A stretch of DNA of 54,774 nucleotides from a virus, in the IMG/VR virus record IMGVR_UViG_3300027896_002339, positions 1 to 54,774 of that record, one strand, 5' to 3'. The notes beneath the pieces were generated by a model that was not told where the DNA came from, ran no database searches, and saw only the letters and a program-made list of their open reading frames with translations. Both the position numbers and the translations under genes were made by a program. This document shows positions 1 through 54,615 of the stretch, piece after piece. Positions within the stretch are counted from its first letter, which is position 1; every line of letters starts with the position of its first letter.

Positions 1-51
1 TTCATTCTAAAAGTTTCCTTTTAGAAGCTCAATATACTTTATAGTACGTTT
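1..51 (-). ncRNA. Group I intron in tRNA-Leu(UAA), 5' part only
   Basis: Reading the minus strand, the tRNA-Leu 5' half stops exactly after CTT (U34 of the UAA anticodon) and does not continue into a pairing 3' anticodon strand. Instead come a small hairpin (TACT-ATAA-AGTA), then ATTGAGC, then a 9-bp stem TTCTAAAAG/CTTTTAGAA closed by a GAAA tetraloop. This matches, from memory, the 5' end of cyanobacterial tRNA-Leu(UAA) group I introns: insertion after U34, a P1 in which exon CTT pairs with GAG (U.G at the splice site), the ATTGAGC block and P2. The catalytic core (P3-P9) and 3' exon lie beyond the left edge, so activity cannot be judged. Confidence 0.78.
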
Positions 52-85
52 AAGTCCCGTGCGTATGCCATTCCGCCACCGTGGC
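52..85 (-). tRNA. tRNA-Leu(UAA), 5' exon
   Basis: The minus strand from 85 reads a 7-nt acceptor strand (GCCACGG), TG at positions 8-9, a D-arm with GCG/CGC stem and the conserved GG in its loop, A26, a 5' anticodon strand CGGGA, then CTT. Standard numbering gives C32, U33 and U34, hence anticodon UAA and a leucine tRNA. No complement of CGGGA follows within the window, which fits an intron immediately after U34. The 3' half would lie left of base 1. It is transcribed in the same direction as the accessory genes at 102-6830. Confidence 0.85.
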
Positions 86-101: not shown

Positions 102-719
102 TTATTTATTCTTCTTTTGGTTTTTTCCTATCGCAGGACATGTTCCAGGAACCATACATTTATAGTATTGGTGCCCAACTTTCCCAGTAAAGGATTTGCA
201 CTTTCTGCATTCTTTCTTTATCTTGACTTTCTTCTTAGCTTCCTCTACAACTATAGGAGTTCCATGAAGAATACAATCAATGGAAATAATTCTCATTCCA
301 CTTCCAAAGTTATCATAGTTATCCATTTTAGGACAAGTACAATGAGGAGCCTGATACCACCATGTATGGAACTTAGCATCTTTTGAGAACTTCCAAGCTT
401 TTTGCATAGCAAATTCAAGCTTTTCAAGCTTCTTTACATATGGATGAAGTTCTTCTCTTGTTGAGAGCTTCTCCATCTTTTCAAACATCTGCAATCTTTT
501 GATGTGAAGTTTTCTCAGAACCTTTATAGCTCTTACTCCTATCCCTTGCTGTAAGATAAGACCCGGATTTAGAGCCATTTCTATTTTACCATTATATTCA
601 ATAGTTATTAAATCTTTGAATTCTTTCCATGTTTTACCAATATCTGATTTAGGATCCCAGTTAACTCTGGTACCATCAAACTTTTTTGCTGAATCTTTTA
701 GCAACTTTAATACGTTCAT
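102..719 (-). CDS. Hypothetical protein with Cys-rich C-terminal half
   Basis: 205 residues, not recognised as a named family. The N-terminal two thirds is Lys-rich and mostly helical. Around residues 120-150 there is a compact motif WWYQAPHCTCPKMDN followed by ISIDCILHG. Further Cys pairs (CRKC, then KCMVPGTC) lie near the end, before a basic tail. The clustered Cys/His residues suggest one or two zinc sites. The start is ATG with AAAAGG 6 bases upstream and overlaps the stop of the FliW-like gene (ATGA), so the two are probably translated together. It is the last gene before the split tRNA-Leu. Confidence 0.7.
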   Translation of the reverse strand: MNVLKLLKDSAKKFDGTRVNWDPKSDIGKTWKEFKDLITIEYNGKIEMALNPGLILQQGIGVRAIKVLRKLHIKRLQMFEKMEKLSTREELHPYVKKLEKLEFAMQKAWKFSKDAKFHTWWYQAPHCTCPKMDNYDNFGSGMRIISIDCILHGTPIVVEEAKKKVKIKKECRKCKSFTGKVGHQYYKCMVPGTCPAIGKNQKKNK

Positions 720-1806: not shown

Positions 1807-2358
1807 TTACTCCTTTGCTCCACAGCATTTTTTATACTTCTTTCCACTCTTACAAGGACACGGTTCGTTTCTACCAATCTTATCATTTGACTTTATAGGA
1901 ACACATTCAATTTTTCTATCATGAAAAACAATACCATTATGATGATCTATTTCATGTTGAACAGCGATTGCTGTGATATCTTTCTGAGGATCATCAGTAT
2001 GGAAATATTGCCTTTCAATTCTAAAATTGTTATCTTCTATTACATGGTTGTCTATGACAACATCGTAATATCTTTCTGTATTACAATATTGTTCAGGGAA
2101 AGATAAACAACCTTCACCCACGAAAGTAAATTTATTTGATAACTCTACTATCTTGGGATTGATTAAAATGAATGTTCCAGCTTTCGTTGTAATTACAGAA
2201 ACTTGTTCTGGATATCCAATTTGAATAGCTGAAAGACCAATCGCAGTATCATGTTTCTTTATTTCTGCAAGAAGCAATGAAACAGTATTTCGTGCATCGC
2301 CAACATTAGTAACTGGTTCAGATTTTACTTTCAACGCGTTTACATCTGTCACTATCAT
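1807..2358 (-). CDS. def: Peptide deformylase with C-terminal SEC-C zinc motif
   Basis: 183 residues. All three deformylase motifs are present: IGLSAIQ (residues 40-46), EGCLSFP (82-88, metal ligand Cys84) and HEIDH (135-139, ligands His135 and His139, catalytic Glu136). The enzyme removes the formyl group from nascent N-terminal fMet. Deformylase genes are known in marine and jumbo phages. Unusual here is the tail at 160-180, [20 protein letters not shown], a complete SEC-C zinc motif (Cys167, 169, 178, 179). In SecA, that motif contacts SecB and ribosomes, so it may dock the enzyme near the exit tunnel; this is inference. Motif 1 has Ser in place of the usual Ala. Confidence 0.92.
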
Positions 2359-2782: not shown

Positions 2783-3004
2783 TTATATTAGTTTAGTACA
2801 ATCCGAACATTCAAATTTAATAAACTTTTCATTAACCATGCGTCTTTTATCTGCAGGTATTTCATAAAAAGGAACAACAACATTATTCTCATCGATAACT
2901 ACTTTCCTAATTTTCTTAGGAACTAGATCTTTGTTTTCTTTATCTGGTCCTTCGTTATATTTAAACTGCTTTTTACATTTATGACATTGTACTTCTTCCT
3001 TCAT
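2783..3004 (-). CDS. Zinc-ribbon protein
   Basis: 73 residues with CHKC at 7-10 and CSDC near 66-69, the spacing of a zinc ribbon whose two knuckles are joined by a charged linker. The middle is Lys/Asp/Glu-rich. Such small ribbons often modify transcription or bind nucleic acid, but nothing here is specific. The start overlaps the stop of the next upstream gene, and it ends 2 bases before the zincin start. Confidence 0.65.
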   Translation of the reverse strand: MKEEVQCHKCKKQFKYNEGPDKENKDLVPKKIRKVVIDENNVVVPFYEIPADKRRMVNEKFIKFECSDCTKLI

Positions 3005-3183
3005 GATTTAATCTCCTTTTTATTTATTCCCTTTGGCGATATTCTTTTCCAAGTACTAAACAATCTTCTACCTTCAGCCATTGAAACTATTAGATTCTCT
3101 TTTAGCATTCTTGATACACAATCTTCTTCGCTATTGGATGTATCGATTATATCTTTCATAGCTTTAATTTTTGGGTTGATCAT
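3001..3183 (-). CDS. Small hypothetical protein
   Basis: 60 residues from ATG 3183, with AAAGG 7 bases upstream. A longer in-frame reading begins at TTG 3207 but would overlap the upstream gene and lacks a ribosome site. The product is helical and basic (ending in INKKEIKS), with one Cys and no recognised motif. Confidence 0.55.
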   Translation of the reverse strand: MINPKIKAMKDIIDTSNSEEDCVSRMLKENLIVSMAEGRRLFSTWKRISPKGINKKEIKS

Positions 3184-3185
3184 AA

Positions 3186-3368
3186 CTATGCCTTTGGTAT
3201 GAAACAACGATCAATTTGTTTGAACTTGACTTCATAGATATTATATGAAGGATATATATTTGACACTTGAACATGACTCAGCTTTTCTTTCAGTTCTGCT
3301 AACGTCTTTCCTGTGGCAACGACACTATCTTCATACGTCCCAACAAACGGCTCCAATTTAAATTCCAT
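3186..3368 (-). CDS. Small hypothetical protein
   Basis: 60 residues from ATG 3368, chosen because AAGGAG lies 7 bases before it. Upstream in-frame codons would run into the membrane-protein gene. The sequence has a beta-rich start (MEFKLEPFVGTYEDSVVA), a helix (TLAELKEKLSHV) and a beta-rich end, so a small compact alpha/beta fold is likely. Family unknown. Confidence 0.55.
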   Translation of the reverse strand: MEFKLEPFVGTYEDSVVATGKTLAELKEKLSHVQVSNIYPSYNIYEVKFKQIDRCFIPKA

Positions 3369-4741: not shown

Positions 4742-6830
4742 TTTTAGGTACTCCAAAGAATTCAAATGACATCTTCGCTTTATACTCTGGTACGTTCCAA
4801 TTCTCTGGATTAACTGGAGCATATATTTTATTATTAATTCTGGTCTTGTTGTTAATAATACAAACATTACTTATGAATACTGTATCTTCAAATGTATTAA
4901 CAAGAGCTATACTATGAATCCATTTACTTGCATTGGTTTCATTGTATTGAAGATCTAGTTTACCTGTCAATCCAACTGTGTAACAATCGAATCTATGAGA
5001 AGGATAGTGACAGTGACCCATGATAGTATTTCTACCATACGTTCTAAATATCTTATCTAGTTTACTACCACCAGTTTGCCCGAACATAAACATATCACCA
5101 TGAACATAAGTGGCGTTACCAATCTTCTTCATCTGTTTCATATTGATTACTTCAATAGACTCATCAGCAATACCATTAATGAATTTGAAATCCAACAGCT
5201 CTTCAAATTGAGGAAACTTTAAATACATATCTTCGTAAAATCGTTCATGATTTCCTAGAAGTAATATTCTTCTCTTTGCCCAAGTTGTCATTCTTTTCAG
5301 AACAAAGTAATTGGTTGCTGATTCTTCTAGAAGACTCTTCTTAAGTCTCATACCACCTATCTGTTTAAAGATATGATGATTGATAGAAGTATTTCCACAG
5401 AGGTCTCCAAGATTTACATGGACGTGAGGTTTATAATCTCTACATATTTGCTCTTGAATATCCAGCACACTACTGTCATGTAGATCGCAATGGATGTCAC
5501 TATTGATAACAGTTTTTTCTTCTGGTTCAAGTATCTCCTTTTCGGTTATAATCTTATCGAAATAAGATGTGGTAAAACCTTTACTTGTTTTATGTATTCT
5601 GCATGATACGATTGAATAGTCACCTTTAGAATCAATATGAACAACCAGAATACCTTGTTGCCATGTCTTATATAGATGTTCCATTCTCCTGTATTTTTTA
5701 TAACCAACAGGGAATGTTTGCTTGACGGTTCTTCCATCAGTATAATCTTGCTGTTTTACAGTATACACTATATGGTTTTCACATAGGCAACCAGGACTTG
5801 CAATAACAGAGAATGTTCCTTCATCGCTGCATCTAGTATCTAATTCATGCCGATGAAGATTGCATACAGTACTTGATTCAAAATACTCTGGTGTTATAGA
5901 TCTTGATATTGGAGTTTGAACATAATCTTGAATTAGGTCTTGGTTTGTTATAGTTAGTTTGGTACCGAGAATAATTTCTTTTCTAACTATATCATGAAGA
6001 ATCTTATTCTTCGCTAGCGTCTTTAATTCTTCTTCTTTAGCTATAATAGTAAGATTTGTAAAGTCATTCCAGTTATAGTTTGAAGTGTCATCATCGTCCA
6101 AGAAATGCCCAACATGAATAACTTTCTTTGCTTTTAAATGCTTTGATAAGGTAGTGATTAATTTGAACACACCACTTCTTGTATGCTTTCCGTGCGTATC
6201 TCCGCAAATTATATAAGTTCCTTCACCTAATACTTTAGAACTAGGATAAGAAAATCCGATCTGTTCTAATTCGTATAGAGCTCGTTTCTTTAGTTCCGTA
6301 AACGATAGTGGTAAGGTTTTATTCTGCAAAATTACCCTGTTAAGAAACTCTTCTTTCGTTAACTCTTTTATTCTACTAATTTCGTGTCGTCCAAGCTCAA
6401 TGATACCTTTAACAAGGTTATCTGTAAATGCTGAATCAATAACTTCCTGTGTGATAGCAGTTTTTCTACCACCTTTCTTAATCAGTGTTTCTAATTCCTT
6501 TTCCCAGTCCGGATGTCTTTTAATCATACTAGCAATAGCGGGTAATGTTGTATTTAATTTAATTGCTATTTCTTTATATGGAACCCCAGCCTTTTTTAAA
6601 GTAAATAGTTGAATTAGATCTTTATCTTCCCAATAAGCTGTTCTATTTTTTGGTGGTTTACTTTTTCCCAAAAAATAATCCCAATTAACTCGATCATACT
6701 TGACGCGACAATCTTCCCCTTTAAGACCCTTAGAATCTATTTTTTCAGCTATCTGATTCCATGTCAATCCTAAATTTCTTAAATCATATAATGATTTTGT
6801 TAGTTCTGAATTCCATTTATAACGATTCAT
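4716..6830 (-). CDS. Tandem calcineurin-like metallophosphoesterase with N-terminal HTH repeats
   Basis: 704 residues. Residues 1-115 hold two Myb/HTH-like units (LTWNQIAEKI and VPYKEIAIKL in equivalent places). A first phosphoesterase-like domain has GDTHG (210-214) and GHFLD (241-245) but no clear GNHE. A second, canonical domain has SDIH (444-447), GDLCG (475-479), GNHE (526-529), HGD (577-579) and GHCH (605-608), the full metal-binding set. The first domain may be regulatory. The HTH repeats suggest that it works on or near DNA, perhaps as a phosphatase or nuclease at ends; this is inference. Its ATG has AGAGGT 5 bases upstream. It is the first gene of this minus-strand block. Confidence 0.85.
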   Translation of the reverse strand: MNRYKWNSELTKSLYDLRNLGLTWNQIAEKIDSKGLKGEDCRVKYDRVNWDYFLGKSKPPKNRTAYWEDKDLIQLFTLKKAGVPYKEIAIKLNTTLPAIASMIKRHPDWEKELETLIKKGGRKTAITQEVIDSAFTDNLVKGIIELGRHEISRIKELTKEEFLNRVILQNKTLPLSFTELKKRALYELEQIGFSYPSSKVLGEGTYIICGDTHGKHTRSGVFKLITTLSKHLKAKKVIHVGHFLDDDDTSNYNWNDFTNLTIIAKEEELKTLAKNKILHDIVRKEIILGTKLTITNQDLIQDYVQTPISRSITPEYFESSTVCNLHRHELDTRCSDEGTFSVIASPGCLCENHIVYTVKQQDYTDGRTVKQTFPVGYKKYRRMEHLYKTWQQGILVVHIDSKGDYSIVSCRIHKTSKGFTTSYFDKIITEKEILEPEEKTVINSDIHCDLHDSSVLDIQEQICRDYKPHVHVNLGDLCGNTSINHHIFKQIGGMRLKKSLLEESATNYFVLKRMTTWAKRRILLLGNHERFYEDMYLKFPQFEELLDFKFINGIADESIEVINMKQMKKIGNATYVHGDMFMFGQTGGSKLDKIFRTYGRNTIMGHCHYPSHRFDCYTVGLTGKLDLQYNETNASKWIHSIALVNTFEDTVFISNVCIINNKTRINNKIYAPVNPENWNVPEYKAKMSFEFFGVPKNVRPKRSY

Positions 6831-13020: not shown

Positions 13021-13980
13021 TTAATTTCTTCCTTGGTCTAGTAACACTAAAAAATCTTTAAATCTTTGAATTTCTTTTTCTGGATTTTTGAGAAATTCTT
13101 GTTCTGAAATATAATACACCATGCATGAAAGATGATAAGATATTATTAATTGTCTATTTTGATCATTATTAGATAGTTCACCGTTTATTTTAAAATGATG
13201 TGGTTCAAGAACTTCAATTGCAAGATTATATTTTTTATCATACAAATCCATAAACTTCCCACATTCATTAACCATACTTCGATCATTTCTTAGAAATGAC
13301 TCGCTACTAAAAATTTCTAGTTGGTCTCCAATAGGAATTTCATTATTTCCAATTCTTGGACACATTCGTTTACCATTTAACTTGTGTTTTTCAATATATT
13401 CAATGGCAGATATACTTTGTTTCTTCTTTGTTTCTAACGTTCGTTTTTTCCCTATATTTGCGTTTGCTATTTTTTTAATTGTTTCTTGTGTGTGTTTTCT
13501 TTCTTTAAATTTTTTAATTGTTTCTTGTGTATGTTGTTTACCATAAAATGAATTTAGTTTTCCACTACATTTCTCTTTCATTTTATTTTTGGTTTTTTCT
13601 GTATGTTTTCTTCCTTTAAAATTATTAGCTAATTTTGCTTTATGTTCCTTAGAAAGTTTTCTTCCTGTTAGAGATTTAGACATTTTCTCTATTGATACAG
13701 GAGATGATTTAAAACCTTTTGGTGTTCCGCCTCTATGATTTTCTTTCATTTTTTGTTTGGATTCTTCAGAATGTTTTCTTTCTGACATTCCTTTGCAATT
13801 TTGGGATAATTTTTGTTTCCATTTTTCAGAAAATTTTTTTCCTTTGTTGGGAGCGTGATGTCCTTTAATCCATAAATTTCCAATCTTCTTTACTTTTTCA
13901 CCACAACCACACAAACATAAAGGTAATTCTTTCTTAACCCCAATTACTAAATTATTCTCTATTGATATTCTCGCTTTCAT
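13021..13980 (-). CDS. Free-standing homing endonuclease, NUMOD3-repeat type (A)
   Basis: 319 residues. An N-terminal zinc-finger-like motif CLCGCGEKV..IKGHH (about 22-42) is followed by six or more NUMOD3-like repeats (GKxxSEExKxKxxENxKG), which bind DNA in GIY-YIG and HNH homing enzymes. The C-terminal nuclease has NLAIEVLEPHHF, then a DQNRQLI segment, like Vsr/EDxHD-type PD-(D/E)XK nucleases. The gene lies between others without splitting an ORF, as T4 seg/mob genes do. It is coupled to a ribbon-helix-helix gene by a 29-base overlap. The C-terminal third is shared with endonucleases B and C. Confidence 0.8.
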   Translation of the reverse strand: MKARISIENNLVIGVKKELPLCLCGCGEKVKKIGNLWIKGHHAPNKGKKFSEKWKQKLSQNCKGMSERKHSEESKQKMKENHRGGTPKGFKSSPVSIEKMSKSLTGRKLSKEHKAKLANNFKGRKHTEKTKNKMKEKCSGKLNSFYGKQHTQETIKKFKERKHTQETIKKIANANIGKKRTLETKKKQSISAIEYIEKHKLNGKRMCPRIGNNEIPIGDQLEIFSSESFLRNDRSMVNECGKFMDLYDKKYNLAIEVLEPHHFKINGELSNNDQNRQLIISYHLSCMVYYISEQEFLKNPEKEIQRFKDFLVLLDQGRN

Positions 13981-15011: not shown

Positions 15012-15279
15012 GATCGAATTCCTTTATTTTTGATTCATCAATTCCAATATATTCTAAAAATTGGGCCATATCAAAACCATCCATATCAGTACTGAATTTT
15101 ATTACTTTATCAGTATATTCAATATTCCAACCAGTACAATCATTCACATACATCCCATAATGAGGTGCCTGCGATCTCCAATTATCAATTTGATATTCCT
15201 GAGTTTTGGTTATCCCTTCTCTAAGAATCATGAAACTGGAAGAGCTACTATTACTTACTAACGAATGTCTAGTTTTCAT
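14998..15279 (-). CDS. Hypothetical protein with SLVSNSSSSSF leader
   Basis: 93 residues. MKTRHSLVSNSSSSSFM is a leader I recall at the N-terminus of many small phage and bacterial proteins of unknown role. It is shared with the gene at 14769. The body is acidic and beta/alpha (WNIEYTDKVIKFSTDMDG, then FLEYIGIDESKIKEF). The start overlaps the VWA gene stop by ATGA, which suggests co-translation. Confidence 0.6.
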   Translation of the reverse strand: MKTRHSLVSNSSSSSFMILREGITKTQEYQIDNWRSQAPHYGMYVNDCTGWNIEYTDKVIKFSTDMDGFDMAQFLEYIGIDESKIKEFDHANL

Positions 15280-16649
15280 ATTTGTATTATCTTCCCTACA
15301 ACCTGATCAACTGTATAATCAAGAGTCTTCAAATAGATTCTTGGTATCCTTGACGGGAGTAGTTTTTGAGCCTCTGGAATATTAGAACACATATCAGTTA
15401 ACGATAAGACAAGACTAATGAATGTGTTATGAGTCTTTTCAAAGTCTAATACCTTTTGAAAAGCATCACTATGACTTGTACCGCCATGATGTCTCCTAAC
15501 ACACAACTCTTCTATATCCTTGCTCGTTATCTTTTCCTCATATAATTTTGACCACTTGACAGTGACATCGTGTTTAATTACTAATATATTTTTATAGTAG
15601 CTGTCTGCTTGCTGAGCTAACTCTACTGCCTTAGCAATATCTTCTTCTGTCATACTACCAGATTCATCTACTAATAATGCTAGTGTTCCATATACCTCTT
15701 CCTCAGTTACATTAGGAAGATAAGGTAATGATGGTTGAGCTAACCAAATAAGTCTTGGTCTACTGTAAGAGATATCACCTTTCTTTTGTAACTCAACGAG
15801 TATGCTGTCTCGAAGAATAACATCCCAAGGAACCTTTGCAGTAAACAAACGCTTAATAAATTTTTCAAAATATTTGTTTTCAAATCCTCTTGATAATATT
15901 CTAGATTCAAACATTGTTTTAGCTAAAGAAGAATCAAATTTATTATCTGATTCTCCCTCTTGACTTTCACTTTCCTGTTTAGGAAACTCGACAAATGTTT
16001 TTTTGTAAGTTTGATCATTTATTTGTAGTTCTGTTTTAGTAATCTTTATTTGAGAATCTTCCGGTACACCATCATTCGAAATACCGACCTCATCAAGGAA
16101 ATCCCGATAGGATTTTTGAGTTTCTTCTTTCTTAAAGTTGCCATTTTTTTGCAGAAGTTCATAGATTTCTTCCTCTATAAGATTACTGAATGATTCATTG
16201 AATAATACTTTATCCTTATATTTATCTAATTGAAAAATCACCAGATTTGCTTGATCGTCAAATTTTTCTTTTTCAAGATTGTAAAGTAGCAAGTTCAGAA
16301 AAAAATCTGTGCTATACTGCCACAATGTTTGATCTTTACCTTCACCTCTCTCTTTGTGCATGAAGATATTATGACCCACCTCATGTAAGAGTGTGAAAGT
16401 TAATACATAATGAATATTTGCAGTACACTCTTTAAAAAATGGATCATCTGGATTTACGTATATATATTTGAAATCCGTACATGCGGGAGCAGAAAGAGGA
16501 ACTTGATCAGTTAGAATAATTGGATAATTCATCGAACACAACCCGAATGGAAGATATACGTTTGAACGAAGTAATGATTCTATAATTTTTTCTATAACAT
16601 TATAATAATTAAAAAATTTATGATAGTCTTTCGTTTTAGTAACATCCAC
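15276..16649 (-). CDS. VWA-domain putative metallopeptidase (DUF2201-like), MoxR partner
   Basis: 457 residues. The N-terminal half has HEVGHNIFMH (89-98), a zincin HExxH site. The C-terminal half is a von Willebrand A domain with an intact MIDAS: DESGS (328-332), Thr391 in HGGTSH, and Asp419 in LTDM. This peptidase-plus-VWA architecture is usually encoded beside MoxR ATPases, matching the gene at 11845. The start is GTG 16649 with AAGGAG 9 bases upstream. That ribosome site lies inside the last codons of endonuclease B, so the mobile gene now supplies this gene's translation start. Confidence 0.83.
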   Translation of the reverse strand: MDVTKTKDYHKFFNYYNVIEKIIESLLRSNVYLPFGLCSMNYPIILTDQVPLSAPACTDFKYIYVNPDDPFFKECTANIHYVLTFTLLHEVGHNIFMHKERGEGKDQTLWQYSTDFFLNLLLYNLEKEKFDDQANLVIFQLDKYKDKVLFNESFSNLIEEEIYELLQKNGNFKKEETQKSYRDFLDEVGISNDGVPEDSQIKITKTELQINDQTYKKTFVEFPKQESESQEGESDNKFDSSLAKTMFESRILSRGFENKYFEKFIKRLFTAKVPWDVILRDSILVELQKKGDISYSRPRLIWLAQPSLPYLPNVTEEEVYGTLALLVDESGSMTEEDIAKAVELAQQADSYYKNILVIKHDVTVKWSKLYEEKITSKDIEELCVRRHHGGTSHSDAFQKVLDFEKTHNTFISLVLSLTDMCSNIPEAQKLLPSRIPRIYLKTLDYTVDQVVGKIIQI

Positions 16650-21075: not shown

Positions 21076-21240
21076 ATGAATGTTACTACTATACAGATTG
21101 ATAAAGAATTGCATAAAAGACTTCGCATAATTGCTGCGCATGCTGATAAGAAATTATATGAGATAATAGAAGATGCTGCTACTACGTTAGAAGAGAAATA
21201 TCATATTCCTCAAAATACTTCAGAGGTTGATCATGAATAA
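21076..21240 (+). CDS. Ribbon-helix-helix protein coupled to endonuclease C
   Basis: 54 residues from ATG 21076 (AGGAG 6 bases upstream); an in-frame ATG at 21034 has no ribosome site. VTTIQIDKELHKRLRIIAAH and then KKLYEIIEDAATTLEEKYH form a clear CopG-like ribbon-helix-helix. It is nearly identical to the copy at 54451-54615 and similar to the one at 27116-27283. It overlaps the endonuclease start by 8 bases (ATGAATAA). Confidence 0.72.
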   Translation: MNVTTIQIDKELHKRLRIIAAHADKKLYEIIEDAATTLEEKYHIPQNTSEVDHE

Positions 21241-22018
21241 GTTGTGTGAATGTGGTTGTGGTGAGGAAGTAACAAGCGAAAAAAATAGATTTTTAAAAGG
21301 ACATAATAAAGGAAAATTAGGAAAAAAAGTAACACCAGAAACAAAAAATAGGATGTCAAAAAGTCAGATAGGAAAGATTCATACAAAAGAACATAACTTA
21401 AAAGTTTCAGTTGGATTAAAAGGTAAAAAAAGAAAACCTCTAACTTCTGATCATATTAAGAAAATTTCTACAGGACACAAAGGTCAAATTCCATGGAATA
21501 GGGGCTCTATAGGAAAACAAAAAGGTCCTAATAAAGGGAGAATCTTTTCAGATTGTATTAGATATAGAATGTCTTGTGGACATAAAGGAAAAATCCATTT
21601 AGCAGAAACAAAAATAAAAATGAGTATTTCCGCAATTAATTATATAGAAAAAACTCGATTTAAAAATAGAGGGATGTGTCCCGGAATAGGAAAAAATGAA
21701 ATTCATATTCTTGATCAAATAGAGAAAGCGATTGGATTAGAAATAGATCGAAATAGTAGAAAACTTTCAAGCGTCACTGGAAAATTTAATGATGGATTCA
21801 TACATCGATATAATTTAGGAATAGATGTGTTAGAAAAACACCACTTCAAATTTGATGGTTCTTTATCTGACTATGATTTTAATAGAGAATCTATTATTGC
21901 ATATAAACTAGGTTGTATGATTTACTATATCCCTGAACAAGAATTTCTAAAGAATCCAGATAAAGAGATTCAGCGCTTTAAAGATTTTTTACTACTGCTT
22001 GATGAAGGAAAAAACTAA
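21233..22018 (+). CDS. Free-standing homing endonuclease, NUMOD3-repeat type (C)
   Basis: 261 residues from ATG 21233. The N-terminal CECGCGEEV..FLKGHN motif is followed by four to five NUMOD3-like repeats (KVTPETKNRMSKSQIGK, HTKEHNLKVSVGLKGK). The nuclease core is NLGIDVLEKHHF, then DYDFNRESIIAYKLGCMIYY. The tail EFLKNPDKEIQRFKDFLLLL is shared with A and B. The preceding 421-residue gene is intact, so this is an intergenic insertion. Confidence 0.8.
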   Translation: MNKLCECGCGEEVTSEKNRFLKGHNKGKLGKKVTPETKNRMSKSQIGKIHTKEHNLKVSVGLKGKKRKPLTSDHIKKISTGHKGQIPWNRGSIGKQKGPNKGRIFSDCIRYRMSCGHKGKIHLAETKIKMSISAINYIEKTRFKNRGMCPGIGKNEIHILDQIEKAIGLEIDRNSRKLSSVTGKFNDGFIHRYNLGIDVLEKHHFKFDGSLSDYDFNRESIIAYKLGCMIYYIPEQEFLKNPDKEIQRFKDFLLLLDEGKN

Positions 22019-24472: not shown

Positions 24473-26186
24473 ATATTTCAAGTGTAAAAAAGATCCGATC
24501 TATTTTATGGAGAATTATGTTCTTCTTGCGTTGACTGGCGGTGATACAAAGGTTAAATTATACGATAGACAGAAAGATTTTGTTGCGCAGGTGATGAAAG
24601 AACATTACGTCATCGTATTAAAATCCCGTCAGACTGGTGTATCTACTATAACTCAAATGTTATGTGCCTGGGTTTGTACTTTTTATAAGAATGTTGTTAT
24701 TGGATGTGTGAGCAAATCTGGTCCAGAAAGTACAGATTTTTGTCGAAAAGTTTTATCTATTCTTGATGGTTTACCTGATTGGTTGAAACCCGCATTTAGT
24801 AAAAGAGCTGAACAAAGTTTTATCACAGATACTGGATGTCAGTTCTATGCAGGGCAGGTCGATGAAAGCAACCCAGAAGGTTTATTCAGAGGAAAAGCTC
24901 TCGGATTTTTAATTATAGATGAGGGTGCATTCGTGCCCAAGATTGACGAAGCGTATACTGGCGTCGCACCAACACTATTTAAATCACAAACATTAGCGAA
25001 GCAACTTGGTGTACCATTTGGAACTATCATCATCTCGACTCCTAATAAGACTGTAGGTAAGGGTAAATGGTATTATCAGACATGGACTAAAGCAGTTAAT
25101 AATGATTCTATCTTTACCCCATTCAAATTGCATTGGAAAATGATTAAAGAGTTTGCTGATGATCCAACATGGTATAAAACACAATGTGCTCTACTTGATA
25201 ATATTCATTGGAAGGTCGCACAGGAATTGGATATGCAATTTGTTGCAAGTAGCAACTCATTCCTTAAAGCAGAGACAATAGAAATATTAAACACCTGTAC
25301 GATCGATCCTATTTACAAGATGCAGTTACATAAACACGAGTTGTGGCAATTCGAACAGCCTAATAGATCTAAGTTCTATATAATTGGCATTGATACTGCA
25401 TCTGCATCTGGTACGGACTCCAGTACAATTGTGGTTGTTGACTATGAAACTTTTGAACAGGTAGCAGAGTTTAGAGGTAAATTGAGAGTTGATGATTTCT
25501 GTAATATTATATATCTTGTGAATAAGATGTATCCTAACAATTTAATTGTGCCAGAGGCTAATAGTTATGGAAATCAGGTCTGCGAGTTCTTAACAAAAAG
25601 TGATACTTGGTATAATATATACATTTCTAAAGTTAAGAGTACTACTATAGCAACAGTCCCAAACAAGAACCAAAAATACAAATATGGTCTAACTACAGGT
25701 GCCCAAAACAGACCATTAATGATCGATTCTCTTTATACTTATATTACAGAAAATCCCAGTTGTGTTAAATCAGAAAGACTAGCTCTTGAATTAATTGGAT
25801 TAATAGATAATGGTAATGGTAAAATTATGGCAGATGAAGGTGAACATGACGACTTAGCTTTAGCTTTATCATTCTGTGCCTATGTTAGAACCTATGATCC
25901 ACCACTTGCTATTTCAAGAGATATGAATAATCAAAGTATAATGGATGAGATGAGAGATGTAGCGAATTGGAATGGTGACCGGCGATCGAATGTATCAGCA
26001 GAATTTTCTGAGATTAAAGAATTTGATAGTGATGATAAATTTGAACGAATAGAACATTCAAACAAATTGCTAAACAAATATCTTAAAACAAATCTTAGAA
26101 AGATAGTAGAGAATAACAATGGCGGCTCTACAATAGACATCCTTAAACTTCTAGATTTCAGAAACAAAAAAAATCAGAAGATGTAA
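24423..26186 (+). CDS. terL: Terminase large subunit (gp17-like)
   Basis: 587 residues (T4 gp17: 610). ATPase domain: Walker A-like SRQTGVST (68-75), Walker B FLIIDE (162-167, catalytic Glu167) and coupling motif STPN (205-208). RNase H-like nuclease: IGIDTA with Asp324, VPEAN with Glu378, and EHDDLA with Asp476/477. All catalytic residues are kept. It drives ATP-dependent packaging and headful cutting of phage DNA. The ATG has AGAGG 7 bases upstream, within endonuclease D. The 3' end overlaps the convergent endonuclease E by 29 bases. No small terminase is seen. Confidence 0.95.
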   Translation: MAAPQSVSAQQQQRLVEYFKCKKDPIYFMENYVLLALTGGDTKVKLYDRQKDFVAQVMKEHYVIVLKSRQTGVSTITQMLCAWVCTFYKNVVIGCVSKSGPESTDFCRKVLSILDGLPDWLKPAFSKRAEQSFITDTGCQFYAGQVDESNPEGLFRGKALGFLIIDEGAFVPKIDEAYTGVAPTLFKSQTLAKQLGVPFGTIIISTPNKTVGKGKWYYQTWTKAVNNDSIFTPFKLHWKMIKEFADDPTWYKTQCALLDNIHWKVAQELDMQFVASSNSFLKAETIEILNTCTIDPIYKMQLHKHELWQFEQPNRSKFYIIGIDTASASGTDSSTIVVVDYETFEQVAEFRGKLRVDDFCNIIYLVNKMYPNNLIVPEANSYGNQVCEFLTKSDTWYNIYISKVKSTTIATVPNKNQKYKYGLTTGAQNRPLMIDSLYTYITENPSCVKSERLALELIGLIDNGNGKIMADEGEHDDLALALSFCAYVRTYDPPLAISRDMNNQSIMDEMRDVANWNGDRRSNVSAEFSEIKEFDSDDKFERIEHSNKLLNKYLKTNLRKIVENNNGGSTIDILKLLDFRNKKNQKM

Positions 26187-27123
26187 TAATAGTTTTGAAA
26201 TTATTTATTACTTGTTCTTTATTTTCTTTCCACTCATCTAACCAAATTATAAAAAATTTACAACCCAAATGATTTTCAAGTTCTTTCTGTCTGATAGGAT
26301 CATGCTTAACATAACATGATCGTTTGTGCCATGGTTCATACAACTCGAGAATTATATTTAATTCTTTGATATATCGATCGGGGTGTAATTCAATAAATTC
26401 TTGTTCTTCTAAAATTTTATATGAACAATGTTTTTGAAGTTCGTCAAACACTTCTTTTTCATAATCACCTTTTCGAGGACACCATTTAGCTTTGCTAGGA
26501 TAATTTTTCAGTATTGATTCTTTCAATAATCGCCTTGCTAGTTGTCTGAATTCTGAAGTTTTAGAATAATTATCAACACCATATTTTTTTATCAAAGTTT
26601 GTTTAATTTCGTTTTGGATTTCTTTTGATTGTAATGGCCAGTCAGTACCGAAATTTTTTCTGGCTGTTGTTTTATATTTTTCTTGAATTTGTTTTGATTG
26701 AAATACATTATCAACACCATATAATTCTTGACATGTTTGAATAGATTTAATTCTAACATCCTCTGATTGCATCGGCCAATTCACACCTCTAATTTTTAAA
26801 TTTGTATCAATCTTTTTATCTTTGATATCTTTTTGTTGCTGCTCAGTGTGCTGATTCCATGTGCGCTTTGATTTTTCTTTAATTTCAATTGATTGTTGTG
26901 CCCATTCAACATTATGATTTTTTAACATTCCTTTTTTAAATTTATCCTTCCCTTCTTCAGATTGTAATATATGATCACAATTATATTTTTTTCTATTTGT
27001 TTTTATTCTTTTTTGCATAGATTCTAATGTTTGTTTTTCCCCATTTCTATGATGATTATAAATAAATCTGTTAGTATTATTGATTACTTCTTTGCCGCAT
27101 CCGCATTCACATAACTTATTCAT
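26158..27123 (-). CDS. Free-standing homing endonuclease, KYGVDN-repeat type (E)
   Basis: 321 residues. CECGCGKEV..FIYNHHR zinc-finger-like start, four to five repeats (LYGVDNVFQSKQIQEKYKTT, NFGTDWPLQSKEIQ), and a nuclease domain nearly the same as D and G from KYGVDNYSKTSEFRQLARR to the end, with ELYEPWH and FFIIWLDEW. It runs opposite to terL, and its last codons (SSDFFCF) lie within the terL 3' end. It is coupled to an RHH gene by an 8-base overlap. Confidence 0.8.
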   Translation of the reverse strand: MNKLCECGCGKEVINNTNRFIYNHHRNGEKQTLESMQKRIKTNRKKYNCDHILQSEEGKDKFKKGMLKNHNVEWAQQSIEIKEKSKRTWNQHTEQQQKDIKDKKIDTNLKIRGVNWPMQSEDVRIKSIQTCQELYGVDNVFQSKQIQEKYKTTARKNFGTDWPLQSKEIQNEIKQTLIKKYGVDNYSKTSEFRQLARRLLKESILKNYPSKAKWCPRKGDYEKEVFDELQKHCSYKILEEQEFIELHPDRYIKELNIILELYEPWHKRSCYVKHDPIRQKELENHLGCKFFIIWLDEWKENKEQVINNFKTIITSSDFFCF

Positions 27124-37892: not shown

Positions 37893-38708
37893 TTAAACTT
37901 TTTCTTTTAATAGATCCACAAAATTCGAGAACCGAACAATTTCTTTTTCTGAATTTTTTATAAAATCACATTCTTTAATTCTATAAATCATACATGCTAA
38001 ACTAGACGATAGTATTAATTCTCGTTCTGTATCACATAATCTCAATTCATTTTTTGTATCATAGTGATGTGGTTCATCTATTTCAATTATAAGATTTAAT
38101 TCTTTAATATAACCATCTGGGAATTTACCAATAGTATATCCTATATCAAAGCTATTTCTAATTATTTTCTTGTCTATATTGTCTTCTAGTATATTAAGAA
38201 TATAATCTTCGTTTCTGCCTCTTCTAGGAATTGCAACATATTTTGCAGCGGCAATACTTAATTTTTGTCTTGTTTTTAATGAATGATGTTTACCTCTAGT
38301 AGATAAACCTATTTTGATTCTTGTTTCTAATGATGGTTTAATTCCTATATGAGAATTACTCATATTAAACTTTGCCGTATCTGAATGCTTTTGTCCTGTC
38401 ATACCAACATGATTATGATATAATGATAATTTCTTTTTATGCTCATCAGAAAGAGGTTTTCCTTTTTTAGCTTCAGAAAGAATTTCTTTAATTTTTTTAT
38501 CTCTAAACTGATGCCCTTTTATAAATCTATTTGGTATTTTTGAATCTCTTCCAATTTTTACAAATAACCCACAACCACATTCGCATAATTTTGATTCATA
38601 TACTATAGGTGTAGATGTTTCTATTTTTCGTTTGTTGTGTCCTGAAATAAATTTATTCTTTTCACTAGTTACTTCTTTTCCGCACCCACATTCACATAAC
38701 TTATTCAT
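37893..38708 (-). CDS. Free-standing homing endonuclease, double zinc-finger type (F)
   Basis: 271 residues. It has two CECGCG-type zinc-finger motifs (about 4-25 and 41-66), three NUMOD3-like repeats (SEAKKGKPLSDEHKKKLSLY, HSDTAKFNMSNSHIG), and a nuclease core LNLIIEIDEPHHYD followed by CDTERELILSSSLACMIYRI. The E-x-D-E-x-H-H string is the clearest Vsr/EDxHD signature here. No RHH partner. It lies between two wedge genes, overlapping the stop of the upstream one by 4 bases. Confidence 0.8.
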   Translation of the reverse strand: MNKLCECGCGKEVTSEKNKFISGHNKRKIETSTPIVYESKLCECGCGLFVKIGRDSKIPNRFIKGHQFRDKKIKEILSEAKKGKPLSDEHKKKLSLYHNHVGMTGQKHSDTAKFNMSNSHIGIKPSLETRIKIGLSTRGKHHSLKTRQKLSIAAAKYVAIPRRGRNEDYILNILEDNIDKKIIRNSFDIGYTIGKFPDGYIKELNLIIEIDEPHHYDTKNELRLCDTERELILSSSLACMIYRIKECDFIKNSEKEIVRFSNFVDLLKEKV

Positions 38709-45595: not shown

Positions 45596-48500
45596 CTAGT
45601 TGGTATTTACAGTCCAGTTTCTAGGACTTATCAATATATTTTTATTTATTACACCTGCTGGTGATGGCGATGCATTACCAGTACCGTTTAATGTAGCAGA
45701 ACCACTAACTAGTCCATGTGCCACTAAAGATGCTAATATTGAATCAACACTTAGTGATGTTAATAAATTATTACTGCAGGTAAAATAGTGCACGCCACCG
45801 CAACTAGAAATATCTAATGAAGTTAAATTATTAGAATGACATTGGAAAAATACTAAACCAGAGCAACCAGAAACATTCAATGACGTTAATAAATTAGAGC
45901 TGCAACCAAAATAATATAAATTTGTTAAACCAGAAACATCTAATGAACTTAGATAATTAGAACCGCAAGTAAAATAATTTAAACTAGTACAACCGGAAAC
46001 ATCAAGAGATGTTAGAGCATTAAAATCACATGAAAAATTCACTAGATTAGTTAAACCAGAAACATGCAATTCTTGAATACTACATTGACTACAAGTGAAA
46101 TCAGTAATATTAACACAATCTGTGATATTAATATTACCATTTAATGAACTTGAAGGGATTGTTATTGCAGTAACACCTGATGGATTATCTATAGTCGCTG
46201 TATTATGAACATAATCATATGTTACAGTACTTCCAGTTACAGAAAATTCTGAACCTGTTAGTACATAACTTCCACCAGAATATAATTTAGTTGATTGTGG
46301 TGGAGCAGGTGGGATAACATTGTTTCTGATATAATAGTCACTACCATCTCTTACCCATGTTGCTTTGTTTACTCCATCCTTTAAAAAGAACGGGATATAT
46401 TTATTAAGCAAATAATGATCTTCTGATGTTAGCGTACTGACATTAAATGTTGTTGGTAAAGGCAACTGTGATTCATATATTTTAGATATAAATCTATGTT
46501 CTTCTCTTAACGGATCTCCAGAAACATTAGTTTTGATTTTAATATAATCACCAGCAGAATTAGCAGTATAATTAAATATACTTATTTCAACTTCATCTTC
46601 TACATGACATGTGCAGTACACCAACTCAAGGATTCTTCTGATTCCGTCATATGTTTCTTTGTAAGGAACCATATCAGCACATATAGATGCATCTTCCAGA
46701 GTTGTAATTGTATCAGCAGAAGATACATATCTATATGCATAGACATCAGTATCTGAGAGTTTCCATTGATTTGTAAAATATGGTGTTGCTTCTATTCCGG
46801 AAGGTATAGTTGGTGTAGCTAATTTTCTTACCCAACCATCATATTGATTAGTATTAATGAATAGATAAATATAACCGCCTCTATAGTAGTAACCAAAATA
46901 ATTATTAGGACTGTTGGGTCTAATAATTGATTCACTTCCAACTGACCAATCAAACTCGAAATTATTTGATACCTTCCAAAGGTAACTAGGTACATCTGGT
47001 TGAGATAGAACACAGATATATAAATTACCTGTTGAAGATGTCAATTCTTCAAAATTAATTTCTCCTACCACTCCTTGCTTATTCTGATAGAAAGGACTAT
47101 CAATAGCTTTACTATAATCAGCAACATCAAATCTAATCCATGTTGAGGTCTTAAATGTTCCTGAAATAATCACTTGGGGAATTTCTGATTTATCTTTACC
47201 TACAAACTGACTAGGATCAATAGCTCCATTAGACCATCTATCCTCTGCAATATCAACATCATCACCATTTAAGAAGTGACCTTGTTGAACTCTCCAGTTG
47301 CCAGTATTCTCATCAACAATCTCATTGAGAGCATGGAGTTTTTCTTTTAGTTCAGATCTTAGTAATACTGGACCAGCAACCTTTCTCATTTCCCAATAAT
47401 AGTATCCACTATCTCTATGATAAACATGAATCAATTCAAGAGAATGATCTAATTGTTTTCTATAACCAACAGGGAAATCATTCACACTTGTTGCTGATAC
47501 TAATGCATCAGTTGCTTCCCATGTTCCGTTGTAACCAGATATAGCTTCGAAGTCAAGAGCAGTCATTGTTAAATGATATACACCACAACGTTTCCATTCT
47601 TCTGGAATTGTGAATACTGCATTGTCAGGAGTAAATAGAGGTTCATCACATTCTGTACAATAAGTATCGCCAGGATTTGTTAAGTTCATTTCCCATGAAT
47701 TTTCACTCTCCCAATATTGTCTTACTGTAATTTGTGATGGAACAGGAGCAGTAGGGTTGATGATTTCATCTAGATGTGTTATAAATCCTATTGTTCTGTG
47801 GTGAGTTGTAAATTCATCATAATCTAATTTCTTTATATTGAAATCTGAATACTGACCTGGTTCCCATTGATTTCCCGCTGAACCACTAGAAGATGAATAG
47901 ACTGAATTATATCCCCACATAACTACTTGAGGATTTGTAGGACCATCATGTCTGCAACCAGTATCATAATAATCACAGCATCTATCAACATCAGGACATG
48001 GATAACAATCATGTATAGTATTTTGAAGTGCTAGATATACAGGTCTGTGGAATATAGGACCGCTAAAATATAATGATGAATCTTTATTCCACCAAGATGG
48101 GATTGTACTTGATACTAAAGTTAAATTGGCATGAACCAACGCGCCACTACCCGAACCTGTTATATCAAATATAGTTACGGTAGGAGCATAAGTGAATCCC
48201 ATTCCGCCAGAGGTAACTACTACACCAGTGATTTGCCCGCCTGAAATAGTTGGTGTTGCAATAACTCCAAAACCATCTCCACCTTCAACAATTACTATGG
48301 TCTGACTTGAATAACTAGATCCGACATTATCTACGCTAATAGTTCCCACTGTTCTTGTATATCTTATATAAGGTGCATTATAATCAGAAGTCGTTTGTAA
48401 TTGTTTATCAGTTGCAATAGTTGCACTTGGTCTAAATCCAATTATAGGTTTTGGTGCATCTTTAACAACCAATTCATCATCCGAGTATGGATAATTCTTA

Positions 48501-51500
48501 GCCCAGAAGGTATAATCATATTCGTTGATTCCACCATTTCTCCCATCAGCATCATAACCTGTTACTCTTTCGCCTTCGATAGTTTCTGGATAACCCTGTG
48601 CTCCTGGAGGAGATACTCTTCTAATATTTGCAGGATCTTCACAAAGAGCAGGATTCCACTGTCTCAATGATATGGATTCAGATCTAGTGGTTTTTGCTGG
48701 TTCAGGTCTTCTTTGAATCTTACTCAGCACTTTGATTTCGGTTTCATTTAAAGTTCTATCAAAGATTTTAAAATTATCAATCACGCCACCAAAGTTTCTT
48801 TCACTTACACCTTTACGTCTTCCTAACCAGATGTATCTGTCTTCCATGAAGAAACCTTGAGCAGTAGTCTTTAGAACCTGAGTATCATTAAGAATACCAT
48901 TTACATAGAGTTTAGCTACTCCATTTACTCTATCATGTTCTTCATATATATGATACCATACATTACTTTCAATATCATCTATTGAATGCATTTGCAGTGC
49001 ATCTTGGGGATAAACAGAATATGATGCATGCCAACATAAAAGTTTTCTACTAAGAGGATTTCCGTTGATTGCTGCTCTACCTCTCCAATGTAAACCACTA
49101 TCAGGATTAGCTCCATCTCCAGCATATAATACAACGGTTGAATAAATTTCTTGATCTATTGTAGCATCATCTACTTTGAACCAATAACTGAAACACATTA
49201 TTGGTCTTTCAGTAGGATAAGTATCAACTTCAATATATTGATCGTTTGTATTATTTCCATCAAAATAATAGCAAGTATTTTGATCACCGTCTCTAGCAAT
49301 CAGTGCTGGATCATTGTGAAGAATTCCATTATACCCATTTCCGCTATGATCATTAGCATCGCCGGTGAATGGAAGATCAAGTATGGTTCCTGTTATATCT
49401 TTCATCACATTCCATTGATTTGTCTTACCTATATTGTAAGGAGTCAAATCAACTGTTTTATCAATATCACATTCTCTTAAATCATTTAAAGTAACTGCAC
49501 TCGCCAACATTACTTTACCAACAACTTGTGATGGTGATGGACTAGATGATGAAGATGAAACTATTGGTTCATAATCTTTTGTAACCCACTCGTTAGATAA
49601 TAGATCGGCACTATAATTTACATACAAAGCATCACACCAGTGGAGATTATCTTTTCTTAATGCCAGAACCCACTCTTCAGTTAAACTATAAATAGGTTCA
49701 TCATTTATTAATTGAGTTAAACACACATTATGATAATTTAAATAGTAAGGTTTACCATTCTGACTTAAATCTGATCTGTTGAAATAAAATCCGTTCACTC
49801 TTTCATCAGAAAATCCACTCACATAATAGACAGCTAAACCATAAACAGAATTCAAAGGAACGATCATCTGTTTAGTTAAGTCATCTTCATAGTAACTATT
49901 GCTGGTTAATTCTTTTGTATCTGAAATATATATTCCATCATTTCTAGGAACATAATCATTGATGTTATGAAGAATCTTTGTAGTAGATATTACTTCATCT
50001 AAAACTATGGAATTGTATAACCTATCATCGAACTCTAGATTTACATTGAAATATAATAATCTAGCTCTTTTTGGTTTGAAGAAGTTTATGATATCTTTAT
50101 TTAAACCAGAATTTGTGATAGTTTTAAATATACCAGCAATATCAAAATCTGGATCCTGGAATTGAATTTTGACATAATTGGAAAGAGTGCCTAAAAATGT
50201 ATTAGCTATGTTAGCATAATCTTCTTCTGATGTTGCTGTTGAATCTATCCATTTTATCAGAACATCATTGACGCCTAGATTAATATCATTGATTCTGTTA
50301 ACTGGATTAGAGACCCACGTTGTTCCATTATATTTCCATGTTACTGGATGATCAATACTTGGATCAGCGCATACCAATATCTCTCCACCATTTGTAGTTC
50401 CTGGTAATGTAAGAAGTTCATCCGATGTTAGTACGTTAGTACCTCTTAGAATTCTTTCCGCATCATATCTATCAGTGAGATCAAGATTTGGATATTTATA
50501 ATCACCAACAAATATTTTATCTTCATTATCAAACCAATTACTCTCAAATACTTTTCTAGTCCACATTGGAGTAAATGTCATTTTACCTTCAGCATCTACT
50601 ACTTTAGTGGAGTAATCATCAACTCTAGTATATAGATGATTCTTTTCATAGTAGTTACTAAAATCTTTTACTAAATAACCATCAGGTCTGAGTAATAGTC
50701 TATTATCGTCAATATATGTTTGTAATTTTACAACATTGAACTGCTTTGTTGTTGGTACAGTTAATGGATCAATTACAATATTAAATAGTGTAGAAGATAA
50801 TATGTCCGGGTTAGTAATATATTTCAAAGCTACGCTAGAATCTATTTTAGCTTTGAAAGTAAGATGAGCTATATCAGAAGTTGATTTAACATGACCAGAA
50901 GAACTGATTGGTGCATCACAGTAAGACCAATCTGTTTCTACTATATATCTAACCCATGTATTTTTGGATACATATTTATAGATGAAACTGTGATAATAAA
51001 TTTGATATCCCAACTGCTCAGCTTTAGAAATTCCAGCTGGTGCAGGCGAATTAGGATCGACGGGACCTTCTCCAGAATCCCAATTAGTCTCCACTATAGT
51101 TCTAATCCATTTTGCTGGTGACTTACATACGTAAAGATACTGTGCATCTATACCCCAGTTCCATTGAACTGATTTAGGATACTTACCAAAATAACTAGGT
51201 TTGATTGAAGATCCATCATGCGTTTCTGTTTCATAGTAATCAGAAGCAATCCAAGAAATATAATCATAGTAAGTATTTTTGAATTCTATCTGAGCATCAA
51301 ATTCAGTAGGGATATATAAATTAACTCTGTTACTTGCATGATAAGATTTGAATTCATTATCAAATTCTATTCTTGAGATGCTGGAGTTTAAAAGAGATTC
51401 TGCATCACCAATTGTTTGAAAATATTCAAATGGTGTTTGTTTATAATCTAATTTCCTGGTACCGTTATAGAATAGAATCTCGTCCAATGTTGTGTCAGTC

Positions 51501-53249: not shown

Positions 53250-54458
53250 TTAATTTTTAATTTGTTCTGATAACTGAGATAGGAGATTTTTAAATTCTGA
53301 TATCACTTTTTCTTTATTATTCTTCCATTCATCTAACCAAATTATAAAAAACTTACATCCTAGATGATCTTCTAATTCTTTTTGCCTAACAGGATCATGT
53401 TTCCTAGCCCAGGCGTATTTGTGCCACGGTTCATATAATTCAATAATTATATTCAATTCTTTGATATAACGATCCGGATGCAATTCAATAAATGTTTGAT
53501 CTTCTAGAATTGTATATGAACAGTGTTTTTGAAGTTCATCAAATATTTCTTTTTCATAATTTCCTTTTCTTGGACACCATTTAGTTTCTCCGGGATAATT
53601 TTTTAAAATTGATTCTTTCAATAATCGTCGCGCTAGTTGTCTAAATTCTGGAGTTTTTGAATAGTTATCAACACCATATCGATTCATGCATGTTTGATTT
53701 CTTTTTAAAATCACAAGCGGATCTTGCATTGACCACGAAACCCCTCTTCGATCTATATTGGTTTGTTGATGTTTTTCTTTAACTACAAGATCTTGCATTA
53801 CATTATCACAATTTCGTATAGTTTTGTTTGTTTTTATGATTTTATTTTTTATTATTTTCAATTCTTCTTGTGTTTTATTTTCCCACGTCTTTTTGATTTT
53901 ATCAAGAATTATTTTAGAGCAAGATGGTGCTGGACCCCCATATCGTTTTTCATTTGTTGCCGTCATTTTTTCTCGAACTTCTTTATTTTGAGAGGGCCAG
54001 TCTACTCCAAGAGATTTTTGGAATCCAGTCATTTGTCGTTTTTGAACTTCTGAATTTTTAGTTGGATTGTCTTGACCCCAATTATCTTGAGATGTATCTA
54101 TGGATTTTTTCTTAGCCGCAGGAGATTGACTAGGAAATTCAAAACCAGTTTTTTCTAATAATGTTCTTTTCCATTTTTCTACCATTTCTGGAGAGTTTGT
54201 TTTTCCTTTTCTAGAATGTCCATGAATAAAGATATTACCGGATTTTACTATTAAACCACACCCGCATTTGCATAAAATAGGTATCTCAAAATTTTTTTTA
54301 TTTTTTATTTCTAATGCTCTTTTTTGATCAAATTGTTTTCTAACTTCTTTGCCTTCTATAGTTCTACTAAAGTGACCCTGTCTAAATCTGCTGTATTGTT
54401 TAGTATCTCTGTTGATTTTCACTTCTTTTCCGCAGCCGCACTCACACAGCTTATTCAT
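53250..54458 (-). CDS. Free-standing homing endonuclease, KYGVDN-repeat type (G)
   Basis: 402 residues from ATG 54458, the longest of the seven. It has two zinc-finger-like motifs (CECGCGKEV at 4-12 and CKCGCGLIV near 69-77), about seven repeats of the WGQDNPTKNSEVQKRQMTG / RYGVDNYSKTPEFRQLARR kind, and the same nuclease domain as D and E (YEKEIFDELQKHCSYTILED, IIIELYEPWHKYAWARKHD, FFIIWLDEW). Coupled to the RHH gene by an 8-base overlap. The N-terminal start is shared with cassette C although the nuclease types differ, so the cassette is a recombinant. Confidence 0.8.
   Translation of the reverse strand: MNKLCECGCGKEVKINRDTKQYSRFRQGHFSRTIEGKEVRKQFDQKRALEIKNKKNFEIPILCKCGCGLIVKSGNIFIHGHSRKGKTNSPEMVEKWKRTLLEKTGFEFPSQSPAAKKKSIDTSQDNWGQDNPTKNSEVQKRQMTGFQKSLGVDWPSQNKEVREKMTATNEKRYGGPAPSCSKIILDKIKKTWENKTQEELKIIKNKIIKTNKTIRNCDNVMQDLVVKEKHQQTNIDRRGVSWSMQDPLVILKRNQTCMNRYGVDNYSKTPEFRQLARRLLKESILKNYPGETKWCPRKGNYEKEIFDELQKHCSYTILEDQTFIELHPDRYIKELNIIIELYEPWHKYAWARKHDPVRQKELEDHLGCKFFIIWLDEWKNNKEKVISEFKNLLSQLSEQIKN
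53255..53267 (-). promoter_or_regulatory. GAACAAATTAAAA motif
   Basis: GAACAAATTAAAA on the minus strand, 16 bases upstream of the 89-residue gene. It coincides with the last codons of endonuclease G (EQIKN), so it may have been taken over by, or may come from, coding sequence. Confidence 0.35.
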
Positions 54459-54615
54459 GTTCAACCTCTGAAGTATTTTGAGGAATATGATATTTCTCTT
54501 CTAACGTAGTAGCAGCATCTTCTATTATCTCATATAATTTCTTATCAGCATGCGCAGCAATTATACGAAGTCTTTTATGCAATTCTTTATCAATCTGTAT
54601 AGTAGTAACACTCAT
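54451..54615 (-). CDS. Ribbon-helix-helix protein coupled to endonuclease G
   Basis: 54 residues from ATG 54615 (AGGAG 6 bases upstream). It differs from the cassette C protein at only two positions (Asn2 to Ser, Asp to Glu near the end), an indication of recent duplication or gene conversion. Confidence 0.72.
   Translation of the reverse strand: MSVTTIQIDKELHKRLRIIAAHADKKLYEIIEDAATTLEEKYHIPQNTSEVEHE

Follow-up and report, generated by a model that had tools for sequence, protein, structure and literature searches.

How the tRNA-Leu(UAA) intron, the classic 'ancient' bacterial intron that is common to cyanobacteria and plastids, reached other bacteria is debated. A phage that carries this intron at the same site would bear directly on that question, and the extreme left end of one metagenomic viral record appears to hold such a case. 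The window analyzed here is the whole linear IMG/VR record IMGVR_UViG_3300027896_002339, a stretch of 54,774 bases with nothing to the left of base 1. Very probably, this record breaks off within a phage tRNA-Leu(UAA) gene in which a group I intron of the tRNA-Leu type separates U34 from A35. The features on which this reading is based are the following, all on the minus strand:

102..719, minus strand: neighboring phage gene directly upstream of the tRNA (phrog_16704, E=3e-20)
52..85, minus strand: 5' exon of the tRNA-Leu(UAA) (direct reading, blastn, exon form)
1..51, minus strand: 5' part of the probable group I intron, stopped by the record end (match of covariance model R1 at 59..1)
27..54, minus strand: P1, in which exon CUU (54..52) is matched by GAG from the guide ATTGAGC (33..27) and U34.G marks the splice site (minimum-energy fold)
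34..47, minus strand: P1 extension hairpin GUACU-AUAA-AGUAU (fold)
5..26, minus strand: P2 hairpin TTCTAAAA-GGAAAC-TTTTAGAA with eight perfect pairs (sequence; comparison with proteobacterial and phage tRNA-Leu introns)
1..4, minus strand: TGAA, the first bases past P2 toward P3 (alignment with phage and gammaproteobacterial introns)

Read directly on the minus strand, 85..52 is GCCACGGTGGCGGAATGGCATACGCACGGGACTT, which constitutes a regular class II leucine tRNA 5' half through U34. It can be parsed as GCCACGG-TG-GCG-GAATGGCATA-CGC-A-CGGGA-CTT, i.e. the acceptor 5' strand, a 3-bp D arm with A14 and G18G19, the anticodon stem and C32 U33 U34. The exon is 88% identical over 34 bases to annotated phage tRNA-Leu genes (blastn) and has the form of the fetched tRNA-Leu loci. 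The 3' anticodon strand TCCCG is absent after U34 in the remaining 51 bases. These read (51..1, minus strand) AAACGTACTATAAAGTAT-ATTGAGC-TTCTAAAA-GGAAAC-TTTTAGAA-TGAA, whereupon the record ends. An unconstrained minimum-energy fold yields P1, a 5-bp P1 extension and the 8-bp P2; in P1, exon CUU plus AA is paired with UUGAG, which places a U.G pair at the splice site. An initial annotation had described precisely this arrangement, a leucine tRNA 5' half ending after U34 and, in the next 51 bases, a P1-like extension, the ATTGAGC block and a P2 hairpin. The first part is confirmed by the reading of 85..52, the second by sequence, fold and model R1, and the observation at 1-85 is real as far as about 85 bases allow.

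Since the record ends after P2 at base 1, the P3-P9 core and the 3' exon are absent rather than refuted. A circular-join check found no 3' half and no continuation at the other end of the window, and a search for a matching 3' half in other viral records (viral contigs) returned only chance matches in coding sequence. On the window itself, ARAGORN called no tRNA at the truncated gene and Rfam reported no group I intron (RF00028) above the gathering cut-off. The latter result is uninformative, because the proven intron of another viral record, L367 (see below), was likewise missed by Rfam when cut at the same point. Conceivably, the locus could instead be a decayed remnant, a tRNA 5' half followed by a shortened intron that has lost the ability to splice; neither the core nor the 3' exon is seen, and a deletion could be hidden by the record end. 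Yet P1, the U.G pair, all eight P2 pairs and the 5' exon are intact, and the related phage genes are complete, which makes decay improbable.

For an assessment of the 5' splice-site domain, genomes were scanned for tRNA-Leu(UAA) 5' halves followed by ATTGAGC. This gave 119 loci from Cyanobacteria, Gammaproteobacteria, Chloroflexota, Acidobacteriota and Planctomycetota, nearly all of them real introns (six were intronless or spurious). An alignment (A1) and a covariance model comprising P1 and P2 (R1) were built exclusively from the 5' domains of 30 bacterial tRNA-Leu introns. In the 54.8 kb of the window, R1 finds a single match, at 59..1 (38.7 bits, E=4.2e-10). Bacterial introns score 54-64 bits and intronless viral tRNA-Leu loci at most 12 bits, while viral look-alikes of the form GACTTAA...ATTGAGC...GAAA reach at most 19 bits among the matches listed, with the exception of L367 at 41.8. 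Verified phage tRNA-Leu introns range from 10 to 42 bits, and of all phage cases only L367 scores higher than the window. Both GGACTTAA and ATTGAGC are invariant in A1; as they were also search criteria as well as model columns, independent support comes only from P2 and TGAA. In 4.13 Mb of other viral sequence, 228 perfect hairpins with an 8-bp stem and a 6-nt loop were found, none of them with GGAAAC as the loop; the scan ended one position before the hairpin of the window itself, which adjoins the last bases. With R1 matching the window only once and the loop missing from these 228 hairpins, the resemblance to an intron is not due to chance. Among the candidates discarded along the way, a first viral motif scan gave seven chance matches in coding sequence plus the short-intron tRNAs of L006 and L009, and a later one gave, among the matches listed, chance coding matches except for L367. 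The scan for intronless tRNA-Leu returned normal genes and prophage junctions.

The R1 scores also bear on two further explanations. The tRNA half might have been left behind by integration at a prophage attachment site, with an accidental likeness to an intron, and many viral contigs indeed carry such halves: L035, L047, L062 and similar contigs have a tRNA-Leu(UAA) 5' half at an apparent attachment site. Such loci remain at or below 12 bits, compared to 38.7 for the window, and no integrase turned up among those window genes that were scanned, so that this explanation is scarcely credible. Equally far-fetched is a short protein-spliced intron of the archaeal or eukaryotic type. Introns of this kind are apparently present in L006 (995-4773) and L009 (54-3669), which perhaps derive from an archaeal or eukaryotic virus and carry several tRNAs with anticodon-loop inserts of about 4-32 nt. 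One of these tRNAs is Leu(UAA)-like; its insert in the same loop is 24 nt long and by chance includes ATTGAGC. L006 and L009 reach only 10 bits with R1, however, whereas the window has at least 51 nt past U34 without the 3' anticodon strand, and its insert lies at 34/35 with P1 and P2.

The surroundings of the locus are those of a tailed phage. The window is a piece of a large myovirus encoding a terminase large subunit, a tail sheath, a baseplate and several homing endonucleases, and the closest relatives of its terminase are in IMG/VR records with 66-71% identity. Among these terminase relatives (L129-L132, G002), a 101.7-kb piece with 16 tRNAs contains neither a tRNA-Leu(UAA) nor a group I match. 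A search with the protein encoded by 102-719 as bait found no relatives. At 33% GC, the window uses UUA for 36% of its leucine codons, more often than any other leucine codon; a UUA-reading tRNA is therefore plausible for this AT-rich phage. Six homing or HNH endonuclease-like genes are located at 13021-13980, 15276-16649, 21227-22018, 26158-27123, 37893-38708 and 53250-54464. A peptide deformylase gene lies near the tRNA end of the window (1807-2358, minus strand), and an open reading frame of 2449 aa occupies 45596-52945 (minus strand).

This context is also relevant for the concern that an assembly chimera joined the end of a phage contig to a tRNA-Leu intron locus of the bacterial host. 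While the site occupies the extreme end of a contig assembled from a metagenome, where errors concentrate, the tRNA starts 16 bp from gene 102..719, a member of a phage family, on the same strand. Moreover, the P1 extension and the AT-rich P2 are unlike the fetched bacterial introns and resemble the phage ones. A chimera is hence very improbable, though not quite as remote as an attachment site or a protein-spliced intron.

A phage tRNA-Leu(UAA) with a group I intron gains further plausibility from complete examples. L367 (IMGVR_UViG_3300036770_006520, 109 kb) contains a whole tRNA-Leu(UAA) with a 227-nt group I intron at 34/35, the core of which scores 76 bits with Rfam. When viral sequences were scanned for an intron 3' end adjoining a leucine 3' exon, 38 stretches were recovered, L367 included. 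Of these, at least 20 represent complete tRNA-Leu(UAA) genes in which a group I intron of 198-688 nt is inserted at U34/A35. The complete IMG/VR phage examples comprise about 14 distinct types, again including L367, and the spliced exons of every complete phage example were called as tRNA-Leu(taa). A terminase was detected in seven of 17 phage-intron records tested; none was found in the other ten, which are mostly shorter pieces. An HNH endonuclease of 161 aa (phrog_10822, E=8e-36) is encoded within the intron of the L447 type (688 nt, six records). The tRNA-Leu(UAA) of two metagenomic huge phages is likewise interrupted: the intron measures 205 nt in LR756501 (735 kb) and 700 nt in LR756511 (595 kb), where it contains an HNH-like open frame. 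An isolate is represented by Agrobacterium phage Atu_ph07 (MF403008, 490 kb), whose tRNA-Leu(UAA) harbors a 278-nt group I intron (locus L487, complement of MF403008.1 at about 2910-3290). Its predicted exon junction upon splicing is ...GGACTT/AAAATCCG... In the corresponding stretch of the deposited record this tRNA is unannotated, and a 'hypothetical protein' (AUZ94936.1) was called across its 3' end. The expectation that an intron-bearing tRNA occurs in a phage at the site of an ancient bacterial intron is thus borne out by complete genes. The reading of the left end of the window as a phage tRNA-Leu(UAA) group I intron is supported as far as a truncated record permits, because the 5' splice-site domain matches bacterial introns in both sequence and structure, the record is that of a tailed phage and complete phage examples exist. 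Phage tRNA-Leu(UAA) group I introns, some of them armed with an HNH endonuclease, are the wider finding that deserves attention.

Compared with cyanobacterial tRNA-Leu introns, the tRNA, the U34/A35 position, the P1 guide ATTGAGC and the place of P2 are the same. The window intron differs in being phage-borne, in its longer P1 and in a P2 with the loop GGAAAC followed by TGAA, where cyanobacterial introns usually have the loop GAGAAATC and GTGNNNGCTC. With the tRNA-Leu(UAA) introns of Gammaproteobacteria and other non-cyanobacterial groups it shares the site, the P1 guide, the GGAAAC loop and TGAA, but not the phage setting, the AT-rich P2 and the long P1 extension. The label 'cyanobacterial' used in the initial annotation holds for the insertion site; the sequence is closer to proteobacterial-type and phage introns (GGAAAC, TGAA) than to typical cyanobacterial ones. 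None of the bacterial introns examined has a P1 extension as long as this one; theirs amounts to only a few bases, and several phage introns have a P1 of comparable length. Two of the complete phage intron types encode an HNH endonuclease, for which the bacterial introns measured (about 210-350 nt) are too short. Group I introns in phage protein genes (T4 td, SPO1 and Twort type, and others located in structural genes) are also phage ribozymes that are often linked to homing endonucleases. Here, in contrast, the host gene is a tRNA and the 5' domain is of the tRNA-Leu type.

By analogy, the intron would belong to subgroup IC3, and we infer a core, a 3' exon and self-splicing from its complete relatives. 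Judging from these, the full intron may be about 200-400 nt long, or reach about 690-700 nt with an HNH gene inside, and would end with a terminal G followed by a 3' exon that starts with AA and pairs through TCCCG. Splicing would then begin with the attack of guanosine after U34 at the U.G pair of P1, which releases the 5' exon. In the second step, the 5' exon would attack the 3' splice site past the terminal G, and ligation of the exons would afford a mature tRNA-Leu with anticodon UAA that reads UUA. Mobility in phages via intron-encoded or free-standing endonucleases is plausible.

An unrooted tree calculated from 82 intron cores (223 columns, long branches) places the phage introns between the cyanobacterial clade and a clade of proteobacterial and other introns. 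Monophyly of the phage introns (AU p=0.10) and of the bacterial introns (p=0.14) is rejected in neither case, and no direction of transfer is claimed for this reason. The data are compatible with transfer from phage to bacterium, from bacterium to phage, or with repeated exchange. Phages may contribute to moving the ancient tRNA-Leu(UAA) intron: copies at the ancient site in isolate and metagenomic phages, some with an HNH endonuclease, provide both a vehicle and a testable homing mechanism.

According to the review by Hausner et al. from 2014, every phage intron then known resided in a protein-coding gene, despite the many phage tRNAs (PMC3984707). Neither the main text on Atu_ph07 (PMC6102473) nor that on the huge phages (PMC7162821) uses the word 'intron', and a group I intron database paper from 2025 mentions viral introns but not phage tRNA (PMC11835236). 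No report of group I introns in phage tRNAs was found in the open-access literature; as subscription journals and most supplements were outside the scope of this search, priority is not certain. Where phage tRNAs are counted with settings that ignore introns, genes may go unnoticed, for example the tRNA-Leu(UAA) of Atu_ph07.

Several other interrupted tRNAs were encountered. Group I introns are present in phage tRNA-Thr(UGU) genes of L183 (about 2008-2304, in a 218-kb record with a terminase) and L191 (about 6410-6725), placed by ARAGORN at or next to 34/35. The viral contigs L194, L195, L206 and L163 contain group I introns in tRNA genes whose 5' exon ends in ...CTCAT; these look like tRNAs with a CAU anticodon, and the Gln labels given by ARAGORN look wrong. 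Group I introns also interrupt phage tRNAs with a would-be UAA anticodon in L481, L448, L449, L453, L464, L469 and L473, in which the variable loop is short, unlike in normal leucine tRNAs. Finally, the trnL introns of L243 and L245, found in metagenome-assembled genomes labelled Lactobacillus and Clostridia, resemble plastid DNA contamination.
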